DNA of 64,000 nucleotides from Undaria pinnatifida (Eukaryota > Sar > Phaeophyceae > Laminariales > Alariaceae): contig JABAKD010000007.1 of the NCBI GenBank assembly GCA_012845835.1, positions 5,781,358-5,845,357 of the forward strand, read 5' to 3'. The position numbers and the translations under genes were made by a program. Positions within the stretch are counted from its first letter, which is position 1; each line of letters begins with the position of its first letter. Below the pieces are notes generated by a model that saw nothing but the letters and a program-made list of their open reading frames with translations, had not been told where the DNA came from and did not search any database. This document shows positions 608 through 45,009 of the stretch, piece by piece.

Positions 608-2992
608 CGGCGCCCGGGAATCTGCCAACATTGGCAGGAAGGAAAAGCCTGCCAACACCAAAAACGCCTGCATACCTACTCTACAGAACCAGATTTCAAT
701 TTGAAAACCGTGAAAAGACCACGAAGTACACCTGCCCGCACACTCTGCCCGCAGAGCTAACACACGTAGCAGCACGTAGCAGCACGTAGCGGCGGACCCG
801 CAGTGGTTAACCACAAGGTATCTACGGGGCTGAGAACCGCCAGCAGCATGGAGGCTACTGCAAGTGCTGCTGCCAGTCTTGCGAGCTCGGCTTTTCCTTG
901 CCGCCTTGCGAGACGGACGAAAGTGATGCACCGGTTACCTCCTCGCTAGGCACGGCGTGGAGTGCAGTCTCGGATGAAAGACATGCACCCACGACCTCGC
1001 CAGGCTTGACGTGGATTAACGAGGAGCCTATGGTGGTAGATGACCAGGCAGCTCCTTACAACGAAAACTCAGCAGCAAGACGCAGATTCCCCGGCGCCGC
1101 TTATCAGAGGGCCGGCGGCACGATACTCTTAAAGTAGTACAGGACGTAAAAATGGCAAGCTGATACTTCTAGAAAGACAAGAAATCCGGGAGCTCAAGGC
1201 AGTGCAGATGACACCCTCCCAAATAAGAAACCCGCAGCCCCAGCCAGGATTCCTGTTTCTCGCTATCAAATAAGCACCTGATACTTGTACAAGTAGGTGT
1301 AGTGCAGATAGATTATTCTAGGCACAATGCTGCTCATACCGCAGTAGTAGCAGAAATTAAATATTAATAGGAAAAAAAGGAAGAAACCTGAATAATTCTG
1401 GCCGAGGCTGAATTTCTTATTTGAGACAGGGTGAGTTCTACACACTATCTTCAGCATAGCGCCTCTCACTTATCTTCCTTTCCTGGTAAGGTACAAGTAT
1501 GAGCCTTGCTTTCCTATTCATATCCCTGGGTGTTTTTTTACATTTATGTCGTGCCCTATTGTCGTGCACTATTATTGTGCACTACTACAAGTAGTGTAGT
1601 GCTGTATCCCATAATATGTACAACGGCAAGCATCACCAACCAGCCGCAACAGAATGTTTTTTTCATGCGTTTGTGATACAAATGTTCCCCACTCGAAGTA
1701 TAAATACCAACACTTACCATTATAGTGGACAAAAAATAGGACACCTCCCAATATAAAATCACCCATATAGTATATTACGAGTACCAACAACGCAGCTTGC
1801 AAAGATGAGTATTGACCTGAAATTCGTCGAACTCACGGCTGACGACCTTGAAAATTAGTTATAAAATGTTGTCGTTGCCATACAACGCGTTTCTTTGTGC
1901 GTTGAACTCCTTGGTGTGTATCGAATGGATGAAGTAGGGCTTTCGGTGACAATATTCGACTGGGAAGCGCTGCGGGTGGTTCCGCCAATAGACGACACGA
2001 ACACCACAAATAACAGGACCGACGTAACTCTAGTTCTACCAAATGATTGGCGATGCTTCTGAAAAATTCTTCTTCCAATACAGACACTTTTGTGTGGTGT
2101 ATGTCGTGGCACTGAACCGTTCTTGCCGCCCGGCGACATCCAGCACCCCCATCATGCCAGGCGAAGGAAGAGAAATATTAGGGGGGTGGGGAATAGCTAC
2201 GAGTTGGGACCAGGTAACCCCCCCCCCCCCTTTTTCTTTCCCTCTCCCCAGGGATGGATAAAAAGGAAAACATGGGAAAGGGAAAACTAAACAAAAAGGG
2301 ACCACAATTTTGTCGATAACGGTGGTAGTATCGCTGTTGCCCCTCCCCCAGAGATGAAACAGACAATCAAACCCAGGGCCACACAAAACGAAACGGCCGG
2401 CTCGCAAGCGAAGCAAAAACATAAACTCGTACGATATTTATTCTTTGTGAATTAACAAAAGGCAAACTTGACCCGACACTGCAGACGCTAACCTACCACA
2501 CCAAGATGGGCCCGAGTGCACTTTTCACATTCACACCATGACCACCACCGCTTCCCGTCTGATCTAGTTTTTTCCCAGTTCTGAAGGCCTTGGGCCGGTG
2601 CTTTTCTGGCGGCACAGTGCGTTGGGGCCGCCCCTCCCTCCCACGCGGGGCAGGGTGAGCCTCCTGGTACGCGCCTTCTTGCCGACTGTGGCCGCGGTGA
2701 AAGAAAATCTGAGGGCCCCGGAATGGGCCCTTGGGCTTCTTGGGCGTCTGTTGGCGGCGCCAAACTACCCTGCCTCATCCCCGCCGCAGCCAAAATCCAA
2801 CATCTTTGCAGCTGACGCCGACACGCCTGCACCTGCCGCTGCGCCCCCCCCCTCGCTGCCGCCACGAACGCCAACAATACCTGCCCCATACCAACTCCGC
2901 GAAACAGCAGGGGAAACAGCGATACCGACAACACCCGCAATCATCGCGCCCCCGTCAGCTTCCTGCAATCTAGCACGCAATGCAGTATGTCG

Positions 2993-3241
2993 TTAACAAA
3001 TAGAGATCATCGTATTCCTAACGTTGGCGTGCCCTTTGATGTGATCATAGCGATTCTGAAGTTGTTGGGAGGCCGACAAGATCAACCGGCCCCTCACCCC
3101 GAGCATCAGGTCCCCACAGTCTCTGAGAAAGGTCGCTTCTTTCACCAGTGTCTGCCACGTCGAGAGCAGAGACCCACCCAGGAAACATCGGGCTATCCGG
3201 TGACCAGCTGGCCGTGTCGCTTTAGATAATCTCAAACTCAA
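2993..3241 (-). other. Coding-like ORF within the 7-kb transposon
   Basis: This is an 82-codon minus-strand frame without recognised homology. It lies downstream of, and on the same strand as, the better supported exons at 4,087-5,106, so it could be a 3' exon of the same gene. No splice chain linking it was established. The overlapping plus-strand frame looks less protein-like. It may be a chance ORF. Confidence 0.25.
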
Positions 3242-7507: not shown

Positions 7508-7630
7508 GTACTTCGTGGTCTTTTTCAAATTGAAATCTGGTTCTGTAGAGTAGGTACACAGGCGTTTTTGGTGTTGGCAGGCTTTTCCTTCCTGCCAATG
7601 TTGGCAGATTCCCGGGCGCCGCGTATAAAT

Positions 7631-8190
7631 TTGGGGGAACACCAATGGTGATTTTTCAAGTATTGTGTACGGAAATTTGATACATACGTGGTTTTTTATC
7701 TGGATTTCAGCATTAAATTTTGCTTGGTCAAAGGCTTGGGGAGTGTAATATTTTCGATCAGCAAATAGTTTGAAGGTGTAATATACCTGGTAGGTGATTT
7801 CGTGGTAATCTTAGGCTGGGCTTATTGAAAAATACAATCGAGAGTTTTCTTTCTGTTCTTACACGTACAAACTTTACTGCACTCTCGATCGCCCATAATC
7901 CTATTTGTAATTTCCTATATGAAGACTGCTGTTCAATTCTGCAAGCTACTGCGTTGGATATCAATATTTGGGTTTTAGGAGCAGAGTCAGTTTTGGTTTG
8001 AAACTGACATTGGATATTTGAGTCAGGTACTTCGTTTGAATAAGCAAGGTTCCGTATGGTGCGCTTTCGTTCAACGTTATCATGACGTGCACACAGGCAG
8101 GGGGGATGTTGGTTTATGCCTGCGCACAAGTCTGAGGTATGATGTGTACGACGTATGAAAAGGCAAAACTGCAAGAAGAACAACAAACAT
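7631..8190. repeat. Repeat A, copy 1, right part
   Basis: Aligns with 23,940-24,215 and then 30,403-30,560. Shared blocks include AAAGGCTTGGG, CTCGATCGCCCATAA, ATCAATATT and CATGACGTGCACACAGGCAG. The sequence GCGTTGGATATCAATATT at 7,951-7,968 is the empty target of the pogo-like element that interrupts copy 2 at exactly this point. No gene is supported. Confidence 0.75.
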
Positions 8191-20204: not shown

Positions 20205-20540
20205 CTTTTTGGTTTATGCGCCTGTGCACAAATCTGATTTACTATATGGTATTTTGGTGTAGCATCTGCGGAGATGCCGGGGAACCTATGGTTGCCCGAA
20301 AGGATGAAACAAAATACATAAATGGTCCCTAATCCCATGATTAGGATCACCCCGTGAGGGAAGAGGAAAAGCCCCTGAGTGGCACTGCACTTTTCTTCCT
20401 TCTTTTAAGTAGTTTAATACTCAGTATATATTTTCTACTTCTTCTCTCTTCCCAGCCCCATGGCGCTCCGAATTTCGTGACTCCCGTCTCCGCGAGCCAG
20501 CCTGTGCCCTCAACACCTAGGTTCATTCATTATGCTAGCA
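20205..20540. repeat. Repeat A, copy 3 (right end only)
   Basis: Aligns with about 30,565-30,890 through TGGTTTATG.GC.GT.CACAAATCTGATTTACTAT, GGGGAACCTATGGTT, TGAGTGGCACTGCAC, ATGGCGCTCCG and TTTCGTGACTCCCGTCTCCG. Homology fades after about 20,540, which suggests the right end of the repeat. Confidence 0.75.
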
Positions 20541-21121: not shown

Positions 21122-21230
21122 TTTTTCTTTTCTTTTTTTTTATCCTCCGGCGGATGGGGAAAAATAAAGCTATAGCTCACCACACTTCCACGTATTTTCA
21201 TACGCGTCGTGTGTCGATTTAACTCAGTTG
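21122..21230 (-). mobile_element. SINE-like retroposon, copy 1 (109 bp, 12-bp TSD)
   Basis: The segment is bracketed by a perfect 12-bp direct repeat AATGCATAAGTC (21,110-21,121 and 21,231-21,242). Read on the minus strand it starts CAACTGAGTTAAATCG and ends in an A-rich tail (the plus-strand CTTTTTCTTTTCTTT run). Core phrases GGTGAGC, TTTTTCCCCAT and CCGGAGGATA are shared with copies at 29,371-29,456 and 44,716-44,807. A variable-length TSD plus A-tail indicates LINE-mediated retroposition. Pol III A and B boxes are not obvious, so the parent RNA is unknown. Confidence 0.75.
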
Positions 21231-22639: not shown

Positions 22640-24215
22640 AGGCATCCTGAGCGATAAGGTAGGCGAAACCCGCGCGAGCTGGTGGGATGCTTGATGCTTG
22701 ACGAAAAAAATGAATTTGAGAAAAGACGTACTGTACCTGGTTGTTGCTTTGAGCAGGTAGTAAAGTAGGTTGGTGTGTATGATGAATGCTGCTTCCATTA
22801 TAGTTGTTGAAGCACATGTCGTATTCATAGTTTCTTGTAATACCAACGCGTGTTAAGAAGCTTGGTATGGACAAAACCAAGGCGAAACTAGTTGGACAAA
22901 ATTTGGCTTGCTTCCGGGGTGATGTGTTAGGCCATTTCTTTTACAGTCGGATTTGTCAATCGAAAACCGCCGTTTTCGACTGAAGCCCAAATTGGGCTTT
23001 CTTACGCAGTCGAAAAAGGGCTAGGCTTCTTCGACTCATCTTTTTTCGACAGAGGTTTCCGACTGGGGGATCCAGTAAAAAAACATGACTTTTTTGACTG
23101 GATCTATCTGTCTGTCGAAAAACTCAGCCCAAAAAGTTTCACACCTGTTTTTTGAACCCATCGCATCGCTCATCCCACCACAAAACACACACCCGCACGG
23201 CTACACACCAATACCAGGCAACAAACAGCAGTATTATACAACAGCGCCGACGCTTCAATGGCTATCACTGCTGTTGCTTCTCGCCGAAAGTCAGCGTGGC
23301 GCACTCCTAGCTCCGCTCGCCAGCAGCGTGTATCACACGACAGCAGTGGCGCGCGTTATCGTTACCATTTTGCCAATAACGGCTACGCTTGCAGAGGCGA
23401 TTGCGGCTTTCGGCTGAGTGCAACGCCACGAACGTAGCTTTATCGGCTTTCGGCTAAGCCCAACGCCACCAACCCGCGTGGACGAAGGTTCGTCGCCCGT
23501 GAACCAGGCGTTGCTCGCGAAGAACGCGCGAAGCACAGAGCTGCCAACCGTTTTTTTAGTGCCATACAGCAGTACTCCCTCACACGTACCGCCTCTAGGA
23601 AGATCACGACAACAAAAAAAATCGACTCAACTGACGATAAGAAGAACGACCAGAAGAATCCAGTCGAAAAAAGTCCAGTCGAAAACGACCCATTTCGACT
23701 GGCGGAATCCGACTGCATAAGAAATGGCCTTAGCTGATTCTTTTTTTTGTTGGATCATGAAATATTTGTTGAAGTCAATGCCCTTACCCTTTGTTTCAAT
23801 TCGAGAATTCTAATTTTGTATTTGCATTATTAATCTACGATAGAATGAGCATTATCGTCGATAGTTCTCACGAGCATGAGGGATACAGGACTCACAATGT
23901 GCTGGGTTGATCAATGATCTGGAAGTATATTACTTTGGGGGAACAGCAGTATTGATTGGTTGCTTTCGAGGAGTGGATGACGAAATTTGATTCCTGGTAC
24001 TTTTTATATTCATTTCAGAATTAAATTTGATTGATCGAAGGCTTGGGCGTATGAGAATTCGAGGTGAAATATTGTTGGTTTCAGGGTTATTTTTGGCTTG
24101 ATTTATTAAAACACAATCCAGAGTTATTATTTCTGGTCTTACACGAACTGATCCTACTGCACTCTTGATCGCCCATAAGCTTATCAGCGATTTCCGCTAG
24201 TTACGGCGTTGGGTA
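22640..24215. repeat. Repeat A, copy 2, left part
   Basis: Homologous to 1-607 and 7,631-7,960. It is interrupted by the 800-bp element at 22,930-23,729 and ends at the pogo-like element. Around 23,921-23,940 it preserves the site that is filled by the 7-kb transposon in copy 1. Confidence 0.75.
22930..23729. mobile_element. Harbinger/PIF-like non-autonomous element, 800 bp
   Basis: The ends are inverted repeats GGCCATTTCTT...CAGTCGGATT. The flanking TTA (22,927-22,929 and 23,730-23,732) matches the 3-bp TWA duplications of PIF/Harbinger elements. The matching position in repeat-A copy 1 has a single TTA (265-267). TCGAAAA/TTTTCGA motifs repeat near both ends. Internal frames (about 23,085-23,720) start at non-ATG codons and show no transposase motif, so it is treated as non-autonomous. 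Confidence 0.8.
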
Positions 24216-25440
24216 CAGTAGGGGGGCCGCTATTGTGCTAGTTGAATAGTGCCGGTGTCCTGTATGGTGCCGGTTAAATTTTTGGACACAGATAGCGCCA
24301 TCAAAAGTTCCGGTCCGACATTATTGAGGGATAGCCCGTTATAGTGCCGGTTGGGCGCCACTGTGCCCCCCTATAGTGCCTGTTTACTACTGCTGTAGAC
24401 ACACACACACCGCGACACACCGGAGGACAAACGCCACCCTGAAAATAGTGTACACCTGCTGCTGCAGACCATAATATATCTACGCAGAGGTGCACCATGC
24501 CTTGTGCGGAAGGTGAACTGTGCCTTCAACAGAACAGAACGCCGCAAGACCCTAATGGCCACGTCTGCCAGGAAGGATGTGGCGGGCGGCTCCACGGCAA
24601 TTGCGGCAGCGTGCTTGACGACATCGAGACGCACCGCATCTGCAGCACGTGCGTCACCACGATTGGCAAGCGCAAAGCGACAGCAGCTGACGGTGCTGGG
24701 GCGGGACCATCTAAACGCCCGTCACCTGCGGGTGCTGGGGCGGGACCATCTGAACGCCAGAAGGACACGAAGCGATGGGAGCAAGAAGGGGGGTTCTCGT
24801 GCGCGCCCGAACAACAACACGAAGCTTGAGATTTGTAAGCAGCTGGATGCGAAGGTCTCTCGAGTAGAGATTGCTGACCGCTTCAGGTGCTCGCAGCGGT
24901 ATGTTAGGGCTGTGAAGACTGACCGCAAGGAGGTGGAGGCTGCGACTGCTGCAGGCAGCGGCCCCCAGAAAACCGCGCGCACGGGAGACTTTCCGGAGGT
25001 GAGCATTCTTCTCCCCGATTTTTTTTTCAAAATTGTTTCGCCCCTGGTCCGCTGTTCACTTCCCTTTTTTCGCCCGTGTTTTGTTTTCTTTTTGTTGTTC
25101 TTCATGCTTTTTTTCACTGCTAGATGTTGTCTTTTTTCTGTCTATAGTTTGTCTCTCGGTCTTCTCACACACAATATGAATGTCCGCTTTCATCATCCTT
25201 TCCTTATTGTGAGGCGAGGGTCCGCTGTTGATGTCCCCCTTTTTGCGTTTTTCCTTTTCTGATATGTTTAAGAACTCCGTATACAATGTACAGCAGTACA
25301 TGATCCGTTCCTTTTCATTTGTGGTCCATTTTGTTTTCTCTTTTTAAAGGTACGACTGCTGTGTGGTCCCGCCTGACCGCGCCATGCAGTGTAGGATGCA
25401 TGCTAATGTTCAAAACATTTTTCTTCAGATATATTGTTTG

Positions 25441-25459
25441 TCATCCTCCGGCGTATGGG
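25441..25459 (-). repeat. SINE-like retroposon, copy 2, part separated by the fold-back insertion
   Basis: TCATCCTCCGGCGTATGGG matches the copy-1 and copy-3 core (TATCCTCYGGCGNATGGG). The rest of the copy resumes at 29,371. Confidence 0.7.
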
Positions 25460-28400
25460 CCACCTGCACTATCTGAATTTTTGGTGGAAGCTCGTGAAAG
25501 CTTCCATGGAAGCTTCCGTGGAAGATATGCAAGCTTCCATGAACTTCCATAGATGCTTTGATCGCTTCCATGAAAGTTTTCATTGAAGTAATGGAAGCTT
25601 CCATGGAGATGTGAAAACGTCGACGGAAGTTTCCACGCTTACATGCTGTGAAAGCTCCCATTAAAGCTTTCATGGAAGCTTCCATTAAAGCTTCCACGGA
25701 AGCTTCCGCGGAAGAAACTTCAACGGAAGCTTCCATGCAAGCTTCCACGGAAGCTTCCACGGAAGCAACTTCCATGAAAGTCCACGAAAGCTTCCATGGA
25801 AACTACTTTCCCGTAAGTTTTCACGAAACCTTACACAGAAGCGACTTCCACGGAAGCTTCAATGAAAGCTTTCACGGAAGAGGCTTCCACAGAAGTTCCC
25901 ATTAAAGCTTCCACGGAAGCTTCCACGGAAGCAACATCCACGGAAGCTTCCCATGGAACAACTTCCACGAAAGCTTCCGCGGAAGCAACTTCCAAAGAAG
26001 CAACTTCCACGAAAGCTTTCGCGGAAGCTTTCAGGGAAGAAACTTTCACAGAAACAACTTTCACGGAAGCTTCTATGGAAGCTTTCACGGAAGCTTCCAC
26101 GGTAGCAACCCAACCCCAACCCTAACCCTAACCCTAACCCTAAATGCAAGCTTCCATGGAAGTTACTTCCATGGAAGCTTTCATTACTTCCACGAAAGCT
26201 TCCATTACTTCCATGATAGCTTCCGTCGTACCTTCCGTGGACGCTACATCCATGAAAGCTTTCGTTGAAGCTTTCGTGAAAGCTCCCGTGAAATTGCTTC
26301 CGTGGAAGTTTTCTTATCTTTCATATCTTACATGGAAACTTCCACGGAACCTTCCACGAATCCTACGATGTTGGTAATTGCGTGAAGACCTCCATTACAA
26401 CCGCAAAAGCTTCCATTACTTCCATGAAAGTCTCCATTACTTCCGTAAAAGATTTAATGAAAGGCGCCGTGGAAGTTACGTCCGTGAAAGCTTTTCTTAC
26501 TTGTGCGAAAGCTTCCGTTACGTCCATGAAAGCTTTCATGAACGCTTTCGTGAAAGTTGCTTTCATGGAAGCTTTCATGAAAGCTTTTGTGGAATCTACC
26601 GTAGAAAGTGCTCCCGTGGAAGCTTTTATATCTTCCAAATCTTCCATCGAAACTTTCACGGAAGCTTCCACGAAAGCTTCCGTAGACGTTGCTTGCTTGA
26701 AAGCCTCCAATACTCCAACGAAAGCTTCCATTACTTCCATGAAAGCTTCCGTGAAAGCTCCCGTGGAGTTTCCTTCTGTGAAAGCTTCCATGAAATCTTT
26801 CGTGGTAGATACTTTCATGGAAGCTTTCGTAGAAGCTTTCGTGTAAGCTTCCGTAGAAATTGCTGCGGTGGAATCTTTCATATCTTCTATATCTTCCATG
26901 GAAACTTCCACGGAACCTTCCACGAAAACTTCCGAGGTTGGTACTTGCGTGAGAGCCTCCTCTCCATATCTTCCGCGACAGCTTCCGTTACTTCCACGAA
27001 CGTTATGGCAGCTTTCACGGAGATAACTTGCACGGAAGCTTTCATGAAAGATTTCATGGAAGTAACGGAAGTTTTCGCCGACGTTATTAGAGCTTTCACG
27101 GAAGTGACTTTAGTGGAAGCTTTCATATCTTCCATATCGTTCATGGAAGCTTCCAAGGAAGCTTCCACGAAAGCTTCCGTGAACGTTTCTAGAGTGGGAG
27201 CCTCCATAACTTCCGTGGAAGATTTCATATCTTCCATATCTTCCATAAACGTTGCACGGAACCTTACACGAAATCTTCCGATGTTTTTACGTGCGTGAAC
27301 ACCTCCATATCTACCGGAAAGCTTCCACTACTTCCATGAAAGTCTCCATTATTTCCGTGAAAGCTTCCATGAAAAGTGCCGTGGTGTTTACGTCCGTGAA
27401 AGCCTCCATTACTTGCGCGAAAGCTTTCTATACGTTGATGAAAGCTACCAGGAACGCTTTCGTGGAAGTTACGTCCATGGAAGCTTTCGTGAAAACTTTC
27501 GTGGAAGCTCCCGTGGATGGTGCTTCCGTCGAAGCTTTTATATCTTTCATATCTTCCATCGAAACTTCCACGAAAGATTCCACGAAAGACCCGTGGATGT
27601 TACTTGCGTGAAAGACTCCATAACCCCCGCGAAAGCTTCCATTACTGCCATGAAAGCTTACATGAAAGCTTCCGTGGAGTTTACTTCCGTGAAAGCTTTC
27701 ATGAAAGCTTTCGAGATAGGCACTTTGATGGAGGCTTTCATAGAAGCTTTCGTGGGAGCTTCCGTAAAATTTGCTTCGTTGGAAGCTCTCATGGAGGCTT
27801 CGGTGGAAGTTACTTCATTGGAAGCTTTCGTGGAGGCTTTCATGCAATCTCCCGTGGACGTTACTTCCGTGGAAGCTTTTATATCGTCCATATCTTTAAT
27901 GGAAGCTTCCACAAAAGCTTCCGTGGAAGTTGCTTGCGTGAAATCCTCCATAACGCCCGTGGAAGCTTTCATATCTTCCAGATCTCCTATGGAAGCTTCC
28001 ACGGAAACTCCACAAAAGCTTCCGTGGTTGTTACTTACGTGAAATCCTCCATAGCTTCCGCGAAAGCTTCCATTACTTCCATGAAAGCTTCCATGGAAGA
28101 CTTCGTGCAAGGTACTTCAATGGAAGATTCGTGAAAGCTTTCGTGAAAGCTCCCGTGGAAGTTGCTTCCGTGGAAGCTTCCATATCTTCAATATCTTCCA
28201 TGGAAACTTTCACGGAAGCTTCCACGAAAGCCTCCGGGGTTGTTACTTTCGTGAAAGCCTCTATTATATCCGCAAAAGCTTATTTTACTTCCATCAAAGC
28301 TTCCATGAAAGTTTCCGTTAATGTTCTTTCCGTGAAAGTTTCTATGAGAGCTTTCGTGGGAGTTACGTTCATCGAAGCTTTCGTTGAAGCTGTCGTGGAA

Positions 28401-29370
28401 GCCCCCGTGAAAGTTGTTTCCGTGGAAGGTTTCAAATCTTCCACATATTCCATGGAAACTTCCACGGAAGCTTCCACGAAAGCTTTTGTGGTTGTTACTT
28501 GCGTTAACGCCTCTATGAGGTCCGCGAAACCTTCCATTACTTCCACGAAACCTTCCAGGGAAGAGGTCGTGCAAGATACTTCCATGGACGTTTTCGTGGA
28601 AGCCTTGGTGAAAGCTCCCGTGGAAGTTGCTTCCGTGGAAGCTTTCATATCTTCCATATATTTCATGGAAACTTCCACGGAAGCTTCCACGAATGCTTTC
28701 TTGGAAGTTGTTTCCGTGAAAGCTTTCATAACTTCCGCTAAAACTTCCATATCTTCCATGAAAGCTTCCATAAAACTTCTATGAAAGTTCCTTCCGTGAA
28801 GGCTTCCATGCAAGCTTCCGTGGTAGTTACTTCCGTGAAAGCTTCCATAACGTCGGCGAAAGCTTCCTTTACTTCTATGAAAGCTTCCATTAAAGCTTCC
28901 GGGGATTTTACTTCCGTGACAGCTTCCATAACTTCCGTGAAAGCTTCCATTGCTTCCATGAACGCTTCCATGGAAGCTTTCGCGGATGTTACATCCGTGG
29001 AAGCTTTCGTGGAAGTTACTCCCGTGGAAGCTTTCGTGGAAGCGTTCGTGGAAGCTCCCGTGGAATTTACCTCCGTGGAAGCTTTCATGTCTTCTATATA
29101 TTTCATGGCAACTTCCACGGAAGCATCCATGGAAGCTTCCATGAAAGCTTTCATGGAGCTGTGGAAGATTCTATGGAAGCTTTCATGGAAGATTCCACCT
29201 CTCCCTTTTTTCATGGAAGCTTCCATGGAAGCAAGCTCCCATAGCTTCCATATCTTCCATGGAAGCTTCAATGGAAGCGGTAAAAGTTTCCATGGAAACT
29301 TTAGCTGTGAAAGTTTCCTCGGAAACTTTCACGAGCTTTCACGCAAAATGCAAGTAGTGCAGGAGACCGC
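25460..29370. mobile_element. 3.9-kb fold-back element built of a self-complementary 12-bp satellite
   Basis: The ends are inverted: CTGCACTA..TG.ATTTT..GTG.AAGCTCGTGAAAG at the left, reverse-complemented at the right. The flanks GGCGTATGGG (25,450-25,459) and GGCGCATGAG (29,371-29,380) look like a diverged 9-10 bp target duplication of a sequence that is single in the other SINE-like copies. The interior is a degenerate array of about 12-bp units, AAGCTTCCATGG or AAGCTTCCACGG. The former is identical to its own reverse complement by rotation. A larger periodicity of very roughly 250-320 bp is marked by ATATCTTCCATATCTTCC. All six frames are mostly stop-free, giving long Glu-Ala-Ser-Thr or Phe-His-Glu-Ser 'proteins' that I regard as artefacts. 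Confidence 0.85.
26108..26143. repeat. Interstitial telomeric tract (CCCTAA)n
   Basis: CCAACCCCAACCCTAACC and further CCCTAA units, about five in all, sit inside the 12-bp satellite. The unit corresponds to TTAGGG on the other strand. Confidence 0.85.
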
Positions 29371-29456
29371 GGCGCATGAGGAAAAACATAGCTTAAGCTC
29401 ACCACACTTCCACGTATTTTTGTACCCGTCGTGTTTTCGATTTAACTCAGTTGCTT
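29371..29456 (-). repeat. SINE-like retroposon, copy 2, main part
   Basis: GGCGCATGAGGAAAAACATA, CTTAAGCTCACCACACTTCC, CGTATTTT and CGATTTAACTCAGTTG match copies at 21,122-21,230 and 44,716-44,807. It lies within the transposase intron and is split by the fold-back element. Confidence 0.75.
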
Positions 29457-30404
29457 ACGCAACCCAACGCTAGCTGGCGCACCCTTTGTTCGAATGCTAA
29501 GATCGTCTGCTTGTTTAATCGTTTTTTGGCGGCAGGTGGATGCGATAGCTGTTAATCTGGTCGACAAAGCCCGGAAGACCAAGATACCCGTCACACGCGA
29601 CGTCCTTCGAAGCTTCGGCCGTTCCGCCAGGACAACCCTGCTGGCTGACACCGCAACTTCTGCAGCAGTAAGCGAGAGGGTCGAGGATTTCAAGGCCGGC
29701 GAGAAGTGGGCAAAGGACTTCGTGGAGCGCAACAACATCCACAGCGTGCGACTTCATGGCGAGGCTGGTAACGTCGACAAGGCTGCTATCAAAGGCGCGT
29801 ATGGACGAAATCAGGGTCCTTTGCGCGAAGTACCCGGATAGTCTCATCTTCAACGTCGACGAGACAGGCCTCCAGTGGAAGCTCCTGCCCATGCGCACGT
29901 ACCTTTCCACCTCGGAGGATGGGAAGACGGCACGGGGTTCAAAGAGCATGTACTTCAAGGACCGACTGTCTGCCATTATCCAAGGGGGTGCGCCAGGCAA
30001 ACATGAGATAGTTGCTCCTACGTAGTGAGGCGGGGAGAATACCTGTGGTAGTATGTAATGGTCGTATATTTTTCGTGCGGTGCGCTTCCTGCTGTGGTTC
30101 TCTGTTGTCATTTTTTATCTGGCAACATCGAAGAAGGGCAACGAGGACTAAGACTTTAACAATACACTCATATTCGATGCACGATCCACATCGTACTCTG
30201 TTGGGCCCGCAAAGCTTGAGCGCTGCACCATGAAATCAACACCTCCTCAATAGTGCTGGACCGCTGCTACTGAGGGATATTCGAAGCCTCAAAACTCCCA
30301 GACCGGCACTATTGAGGCACTGTTCTGAATACTGCCGGTGCCCCGGTATAGTTCCGCTTTTCCCTCGGGACATTACCCGACACTTTAGAGGGCCCCCTAC
30401 TCTA

Positions 30405-30890
30405 TCAATATTCGGGTTTTCGAAACAGAGACAGTATTCGTGTGAAATTGTCAGTGGACATTTGAGGCATGTACCTTGTTTGACTAGGCAAGATTCGGGT
30501 GGTGCGCTTTGGATGAACGTTGTCATGACGTGCACACAGGCAGGGGGAATGTTGTTTTATGTGTTGGTTTATGGCTGTACACAAATCTGATTTACTATGT
30601 TGTATTATATGGTAGAATCAGCGAAAGTGCGGGGGAACCTATGGTTTCCCGCACGGCTAAAAAGTTATATATATATATAAGTGGTCGCTAATCTCATGAT
30701 TGGGGGCACCACGTGAGGGAGTGGGAAAAGCCACTGAGTGGCACTGCACCTTCCTTTCTTCCTTTCAGTAGTATATTTTATACTCCGTATTTTCTACTTC
30801 TTCCCTCTTCCCAGCCTCATGGCGCTCCGGATTTCGTGACTCCCGTCTCCGCGAGCCAGCCTGCGCCCTTAAAACCTGGGTTCATCCATT
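30405..30890. repeat. Repeat A, copy 2, right part
   Basis: Continues repeat A from the pogo insertion: TCAATATTCGGGTTTTCG matches 7,961 on, and the distal half matches copy 3 (20,205-20,540). No gene is supported. Confidence 0.8.
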
Positions 30891-33523: not shown

Positions 33524-33543
33524 AGGGTTAGGGTTAGGGTTAG
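33524..33543. repeat. Interstitial telomeric motif (TTAGGG)3
   Basis: CAGGGTTAGGGTTAGGGTTAG, three and a half units in the G-strand orientation. Confidence 0.85.
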
Positions 33544-44216: not shown

Positions 44217-45009
44217 ATGAGCACAGCCTCCACGGTGAAGGGGCCCCCGCTACAACCCTCTCTCGACAAGGCAGCTTGGCTACAAAGCGTATGCGGAAAG
44301 CCAGCCGATGGCGAAGGTTTCATCTGCTGCTGCGGGGCCAACCTCCGTGACGGTTCAGTAATGGACGAGGGCCAGGCCATTCAGCATGAGTGTTCGACAC
44401 AGCACAGAGAGTGAGTGGAAAGGCATGAGGACTGAAGTGTGATATTGGAGAGTATAGTGTACCTCGCAGCAGCAGCAACAGTGGCAAGCACTGGAAAGAC
44501 AAAACTCTGGTTTATCATACGTAAAAGTGCTCACCATCGTGCAGTGTGTGTCGTTCTGCTTCCTCCCCAATAACTGACAACATCAGCAGTAGCAGAAACC
44601 TAGCCTTGGCATTAGCAGCAGCTGTAGCAGCAGCAGAGCAGCAATACCCCAAGCAGTAGCTGCATGATCAAAATCGCCAAAAAAAAACGTGCACGAAATG
44701 CGAACCATCTAAGTTCCTTTTTTTGTTTTTGTTTTATCCTCTGGCGCATGGGGAAAAATATAGCTTAAGCTCACCACACTTCCACGTATTTCCATACGCG
44801 CCGTGTGTCTAAGTTACTCTGCGTTCCTTTTGGTCCCTGCACGCCTTTCGCATGCGAGCAGGGCAGTGTTGCCTATCGGAAAAATCGTCGTGAAGATCAG
44901 CATCGGCAACTGGGTGTGAAAGAAGTGCAAGCGCGATTTCGGACGCAATATAGAGCAACTGAGCCGGACCCACGTGGAGACTCACGAGCAGTGGCGTCAA
45001 CACAAGTGA
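44217..45009 (+). pseudogene. Two-exon zinc-finger-like gene with an in-frame TGA
   Basis: Exon 1 (44,217-44,410) starts at ATG (MSTASTVKGPPLQPSLDKAA) and contains FICCCGANLRDG with downstream H-x4-H (HECSTQH), a possible zinc-binding module. It ends at GTGAGT in phase 2. Exon 2 starts at 44,862 after GCGAGCAG and restores the phase: EAVLPIGKIVVKISIGNWV, then TGA (44,917), then KKCKRDFGRNIEQLSRTHVE and TH..QWRQH. The TGA falls where a Cys would complete a C-x2-C...H-x3-H finger, so one substitution probably broke it, unless the codon is read through. A TATA-like TATATAATATA lies at 44,085. The intron contains SINE-like copy 3. Confidence 0.5.
44716..44807 (-). mobile_element. SINE-like retroposon, copy 3 (92 bp, 8-bp TSD)
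   Basis: Flanked by a perfect 8-bp duplication TCTAAGTT (44,708-44,715 and 44,808-44,815). It has the same core as the other two copies and an A-rich tail on the minus strand (plus-strand CCTTTTTTTGTTTTTG). It lies in the intron of the 44,217 gene. Confidence 0.75.

Follow-up and report, generated by a model that had tools for sequence, protein, structure and literature searches.

The 64,000-nt window considered here comes from Undaria pinnatifida (assembly GCA_012845835.1, contig JABAKD010000007.1, positions 5,781,358-5,845,357 of the forward strand; all positions below are those of the window). It contains a nest of four levels, in which a repeat (repeat A) is interrupted by a pogo-like element, the pogo-like element by a poly-A retroposon, and the retroposon by a 3.9-kb fold-back element (FB). 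Nested transposons as such are ordinary; the most unusual feature of this nest is a tract of host telomere repeats inside FB, which is absent from the first-pass annotation of the window. The arrangement is the result of four successive insertions, and the telomere repeats were probably captured by non-autonomous elements and then spread with them. The features of FB are as follows:

25457-29369, + strand: FB, with GGGCCACCTGCACTA at its left end, CGGTCTCCTGCACTA at its right end (other strand) and 12-bp palindromic units in between
26107-26143, + strand: telomere-repeat tract in FB, (CCCTAA)4 plus variant units
25449-25456, + strand: FB target duplication, left, 8 bp
29370-29377, + strand: FB target duplication, right, 8 bp with one mismatch

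Telomere Repeats within the Fold-Back Element

Host telomeres consist of (TTAGGG)n. Among ten contig ends read, the two of contig C56 are telomeric to the tip, with 66 TTAGGG in the final 400 bases of the contig and 22 CCCTAA in the initial 400; 8-9 copies per 400 bases occur at each end of C2 and at one end of C22, a single copy at one end of contig C1, and none at the remaining four. The same hexamer recurs inside FB across the genome. At least one CCCTAA is present in 23 of 28 FB copies and two adjacent units in 18, always on the left-to-right strand, while TTAGGG occurs on the tract-bearing strand in 0 of 28; the background for comparison is four single hexamers, on either strand, in 35,158 bases (loci L001-L010). 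The 28 copies comprise 24 pairs of FB ends (window copy included) and four new ones from a second batch of 12 pairs, eight of which had already been counted; the pairs were drawn from 100 listed FB tips of 290, and a tip was excluded when its fetched stretch contained no partner. Ten 9-kb stretches around single FB tips each held a partner end.

By reading, the tract occurs in three contexts. Most often, in 15 of the 23 tract-bearing copies, it stands as GCAAC-(tract)-GCTTCC or in a closely similar form; in five (L018, the first copy of L044, the second copy of L046, L055 and L059) the tract lies in a unique central sequence, and in three (the first copy of L046, L053 and the second copy of L057) tract and array repeat together. 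Three copies (L045, L056 and L058) have one intact unit only. Five copies carry no tract, and four of these (L033, L047, L054 and L060) have exact 8-bp target duplications; the tract is therefore dispensable for FB movement. Outside FB, the window has two short TTAGGGTTAGGG tracts, at 33528 and 48722.

Structure and Spread of FB

FB is a dispersed element with long inverted ends made of tandem subrepeats, as seen in the window copy, which is the structure of the fold-back class. Its end motif (19 bases, three free positions) has 153 + 137 exact matches in the genome, against 0 + 0 for the control, and the copies range from 100 to 3913 bp in length. The window copy has as its interior an array of AAGCTTCCATGG-related units, and such units fill most of the copy profiles, L051 and L029 being clear exceptions. 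The first-pass annotation had placed a 3.9-kb fold-back element in the retroposon with a duplication of 9-10 bp; the element and its site stand, and the duplication is instead 8 bp, as established on the 28 copies. Fourteen of these have an exact 8-bp duplication, and 20 have one with at most one mismatch; exact duplications of 9, 10, 11 or 12 bp occur in none, and of 6 or 7 bp in three. Control flanks paired across FB copies come within one mismatch of 8 bp in 0 of 756 cases, and the duplication in the window, CGGCGTAT/CGGCGCAT, is identical at seven of eight positions.

Across the 28 copies, that of the window included, 1213 of 1402 intervals between array units are divisible by three in length, and open frames reach 881 amino acids. 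No gene is claimed for the array, nor a coding origin, because L044 has long frames on both strands, as a stop-free palindromic unit would give, and because the variable positions look, by eye, like decay of a CGCG core.

Internal Telomere Tracts in Other Families

A telomere 18-mer occurs 2987 + 3393 times in the genome and its reversed control 10 + 3 times, a count that takes in true chromosome ends and scores each long run repeatedly. Tracts were sampled on contig C1 (n = 41: the first 40 windows listed, from 0.29 to 14.17 Mb, plus one at 13783816, in L055) and the first 40 were grouped after masking telomere-like sequence. Dispersed families account for 31 of the 41: FB for 11 (ten fetched, plus L055), a group of alpha, gamma and locus L082 for nine, beta for four, delta for three and epsilon for four; the alpha/gamma/L082 group is perhaps joined by a shared hairpin alone. 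In alpha, beta, gamma and epsilon the tract lies between inverted arms, as it does, with short arms, in one of two delta copies; from these arms, alpha, beta, delta and epsilon are presumed to be mobile. By eye, a hairpin of type CGCGGCTTCGCCGCG or a close variant follows the tract in eight windows (L071, L072, L075, L082, L087, L110, L114 and L115); it is possibly a shared module, and alpha, gamma and epsilon may share one.

The two gamma copies read at length have 9-bp target duplications (by eye), ATCTAGATA and GATAACCTG, and a 21-mer of the left arm has 58 + 56 genome matches against 0 + 0 for the control. When gamma is sampled independently of the tract, 23 of 24 copies bear it: four of the five copies on C1 lie within the range of the tract listing and all four have a tract, and among the next 20 listed copies CCCTAA is present in 19, with at least two adjacent units in 18, the remaining copy having degenerate units. 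The tract is edged by ACCCCA and CCCCAA variant units, and the sampled copies are highly similar on both of its sides.

Internal telomere repeats are often taken as scars of chromosome fusion or of the repair of single breaks. Of the sampled tracts, 31 of 41 belong to dispersed families, two of which (FB and gamma) have target duplications; tracts of this kind could not be taken for fusion points. The repair view of internal telomere tracts is represented by the available text of PMC8537989.

The Nest and Its Host Sites

The remaining levels of the nest consist of the following features:

23928-24215, + strand: left part of repeat A, with the first TA copy of the target (24214-24215) as its last two bases
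30403-30561, + strand: repeat A, right part, starting with the second TA copy 30403-30404
7624-8118, + strand: repeat A, empty-site copy with a single TA at 7959-7960; 39 more uninterrupted copies in the genome
24216-30402, + strand: pogo-like element, terminal 13 bp inverted, 11/13 identical
24822-24998, + strand: transposase exon 1, helix-turn-helix (HTH) part; CENP-B_N 14.5 bits, under the cut-off of 21.2
24999-29535, + strand: transposase intron, GT...AG edges by eye, enlarged by two later insertions
29536-29799, + strand: transposase exon 2; HTH_Tnp_Tc5 23.1 bits, over the cut-off of 22.2
25442-25456, - strand: 3' part of the retroposon, as far as its letters are recognisable (the tail has degenerated further left), with one copy of the FB duplication as its last 8 bases
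29370-29486, - strand: 5' part of the retroposon, with the second copy of the FB duplication as its first 8 bases
21139-21230, - strand: uninterrupted retroposon copy, AATGCATAAGTC on both flanks
44743-44806, - strand: uninterrupted retroposon copy, aligned stretch

The four levels, their order and their host sites had been proposed in the first-pass annotation from the window alone, and genome data back every level; nearly all of the boundaries hold as well, with the length of the FB duplication corrected. The nest gives a clear order of activity, from pogo-like element to retroposon to FB. The insertion of the pogo-like element at a TA of repeat A is confirmed by the TA copies at 24214-24215 and 30403-30404 and by uninterrupted copies that span the site. 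Empty targets are likewise found within the window, as had been noted: repeat A with a single TA at 7959-7960, and uninterrupted retroposon copies at 21 kb and 44 kb. The repeat A copy at 7624-8118 aligns to 23928-24195 and 30403-30561; when the flanks are joined, the TA at 7959-7960 lands on the join as predicted, while the single clean gap that was expected is accompanied by smaller gaps elsewhere, the largest of about 25 bases. A genome search with the empty copy, in which 40 of 506 candidates were scored and the scoring favours continuous copies, gives 43 matches, of which 40 are long, the query and 39 others, and each of these crosses the TA site unbroken. The adjoining 30564-30891 matches 20209-20532 and possibly belongs to repeat A.

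The pogo/Tigger group of the Tc1-mariner superfamily is characterized by a TA duplication, a CENP-B/Tc5-type DNA-binding domain and short inverted ends beginning CAGT (CAGTA-type). The window element shares the TA duplication, with its empty site, and a CENP-B/Tc5-type DNA-binding domain (exon 2 above and exon 1 below the cut-off). The fit of its ends to the CAGTA type is partial: CAGTAGGGGGGCC and GAGTAGGGGGCCC match at 11 of 13 positions, and the second starts GAGT. The element differs in that the copy is frame-broken, with no DDE domain recognised, and in that 20 relatives have a gap of 437-645 bp between the HTH parts. The transposase gene is broken by a frame change near 29801, and the 74-aa fragment at 29801-30022 gives no Pfam family, the copy being broken there.

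The CENP-B/Tc5-type transposase pieces sit on either side of 24999-29535. A spliced 147-aa query has 108 matches in the genome, among which 20 adjacent exon matches were paired by eye (leaving out the close pairs C48, with a gap of about 563, and C55, of about 7560, and ten weaker pairs of about 429-1645); the match of these relatives is interrupted at around query residues 55-66, like that of the window, and their gaps have a median of 477.5 bp. The gap between the exon matches of the window is 4513 bp; it falls to 592 when FB and one duplication are subtracted, and to 468 when the 124 recognised bp of the retroposon are subtracted too. As this lies within the range of the relatives, both the retroposon and FB are placed inside the intron.

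The nested retroposon is recognisable at 25442-25456 and 29378-29486. It had been labelled as similar to a short interspersed nuclear element (SINE), a label that is justified in part. The element is a short retroposon of poly-A type whose 5' end varies, and an A-rich tail, many copies and a target duplication, the last spelled out for the 21-kb copy only (12 bp), agree with the label. SINEs also have a head derived from a pol III RNA, with A and B boxes; a search of the whole window at the Rfam gathering threshold returns no RNA family, a result that does not decide the matter, and the retroposon may alternatively be the 3' end of a long interspersed nuclear element. With the 21-kb copy as query (40 of 145 candidates scored), the genome gives 41 matches, 40 of them near full-length at 93-100% identity (itself and 39 others) and the 41st a partial reversed piece. 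All eight fetched copies have poly-T on the left with a common start and a right end that varies in length, and therefore fit a poly-A retroposon with 5' truncation. Alignment of the right part of the nested retroposon gives 87% identity over 84 bases with the 21-kb copy and 89% over 64 bases with the 44-kb copy; this part is therefore more diverged than the scored copies.

Beside the nest, 22930-23729 is a further insertion with inverted ends GGCCATTTCTT.. and TTA flanks on both sides, which is taken from the TTA to be PIF/Harbinger-like; another copy of its host repeat, near 55-432, appears without the insertion.

Superfamily of FB

FB may be of Mutator type or belong to another superfamily. 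Target duplications of the Mutator superfamily are about 8-11 bp, a range into which the 8 bp of FB falls; 8 bp also suits hAT and P. The ends of hAT elements are of CAG type, and those of FB, GGGCCACC and CGGTCTCC, are not. A MULE transposase search gives 111 matches (150 of 172 candidates scored) and a hAT search 150 matches (150 of 371 scored). The MULE matches cluster on contig C30 (41 of 111, counted by eye).

Two FB copies with interior sequence other than array were considered. In L051, about 2.3 kb in the middle of the element (about 770-3050) is non-array DNA, and no transposase is seen by eye, without a family search, in the eight longest frames of this copy. In L029, open frames at 1501-3019 stand directly behind the FB left end and are presumed by motif to be Copia-like gag and protease; L029 was set aside as an autonomous FB and the frames are taken for a later insertion. 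One exact form of the FB end motif has no match in viral contigs, a set from which records near the genome of the window are possibly excluded.

Origin of the Telomere Tracts

The pogo-like element inserted at a TA of repeat A, then the poly-A retroposon in the transposase intron, and FB last, presumably moved by a transposase that makes 8-bp staggered cuts. An ancestor of FB would have captured a short run of host telomere repeat, most likely at a palindromic break repaired with telomerase or telomere-derived DNA; this route is suggested by the link between tracts and double-strand breaks described for vertebrates in the accessible text of PMC8537989. The tract would then have been copied along with the element, its length drifting; that it travels with the element is argued by the constant strand, the recurring junctions and the similar flanks. 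Gamma carries a tract in nearly every sampled copy, and four more dispersed families apparently carry one too; most internal telomere tracts of the genome would then stem from such repeat cargo, judging from the sample of one contig.

Several results weigh against this account. Eight of the 28 FB copies have no 8-bp duplication at one mismatch or fewer. The three tract contexts mean that a single ancestral capture is insufficient for FB, the border units of CCCCAA type make local slippage from C-rich sequence possible in gamma, and 10 of the 41 sampled tracts, all from one contig, lie outside the named families. An autonomous partner or transposase of FB was not found in the MULE, hAT and KDZ searches, none of which gave anything linked to FB ends: on contigs C1-C25, none of 21 MULE matches lies within 30 kb of the 100 listed FB tips (190 tips are unlisted), and the nearest of 36 hAT matches is 25.7 kb from a listed tip, with the same 190 unlisted and four hAT matches on C25 lying past the last listed tip; the KDZ search gave no match, and no control matched either.

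It might be supposed that the tract is not telomeric at all and arose by slippage from a C-rich or A-rich seed, resembling the telomere by chance. The ACCCCA and CCCCAA variants that border the gamma tract are in keeping with this, as is the third FB context, in which the tract repeats sit inside a larger unit; the unit is, however, the host telomere hexamer in different sequence contexts, and the excess of the 18-mer over its reversed control speaks against slippage, so that a chance origin is unlikely. A tract kept by selection as a working part, for example by binding telomere proteins with a role in the protection, placement or silencing of the element, is quite unlikely: tracts do recur in several families, lie on one strand in FB and stay recognisable there, by eye, amid a varying array, yet four of the five tract-less copies have moved, and three FB copies are down to a single intact unit.

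Palindromes are prone to break, and each copy could in principle have gained its tract separately, through telomerase acting at palindrome breaks after insertion. Short internal telomere tracts of vertebrates do arise at double-strand breaks, according to the available text of PMC8537989; nevertheless, separate gain is very unlikely here, as all 23 tract-bearing FB copies have the tract on the same strand with recurring junctions and the gamma copies are closely alike on both of its sides. That the nest is an artefact of assembly is scarcely credible: the interior of FB is self-similar across 3.9 kb and hard to assemble, but the ends, duplication and array of FB are found at many places in the genome, levels 1, 3 and 4 have uninterrupted target copies, and at level 2 the intron is of normal size in relatives.

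Capture followed by spread with the elements is retained as the probable origin of the tracts. A broader generalization, that non-autonomous inverted-repeat transposons repeatedly gain telomere repeats through telomerase-healed breaks in their palindromes and that transposition scatters these as seeds, is put forward as a tentative idea, with the odds somewhat against it. If true, most internal telomere tracts would be transposon cargo, sited so as to be able later to promote breakage, fusion or new telomere formation. The tract-bearing families would offer a large set of duplicated sites at which the capture and decay of telomere repeats, and any effects on chromosome stability, could be measured.

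Comparison with Known Systems

A close counterpart of FB is Tetris, a fold-back transposon of Drosophila virilis whose TIR-220 repeats fed a satellite, as described in the accessible part of PMC4079207. Tetris and FB are alike in being non-autonomous, with long inverted ends, internal tandem repeats and a transposase that has not been found, and the Tetris duplications of 8-9 (8-10) bp are comparable to the 8 bp of FB (PMC4079207, accessible part). FB differs from Tetris in its 12-bp palindromic unit and in the host telomere tract inside it; in the searchable text of PMC4079207, the string 'telomer' occurs once. The element Tm1 of root-knot nematodes is titled as a member of the Mutator/Foldback family, and the available text of that paper contains the term tandem repeats (PMC3169594). 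Within the open PMC literature, as far as the text of the sources extends (PMC8537989, PMC9071541, PMC6947457, PMC4079207 and PMC12477816 among them), no description was found of telomere tracts as internal parts of inverted-repeat elements, which does not imply that they are unpublished.

Short interstitial telomeric sequences of vertebrates are described as inserted at double-strand breaks, some of them within transposable elements (PMC8537989, available text). They resemble the tract of the window in being short and internal, with some in transposable elements; they arise locus by locus, whereas most of the tracts sampled here belong to repeated families. For vertebrate tracts flanked by telomerase-RNA sequence, the authors suggest that transposons did not spread them (PMC8537989, in the text available); the Undaria sample suggests the opposite, with telomere tracts spread by repeats.

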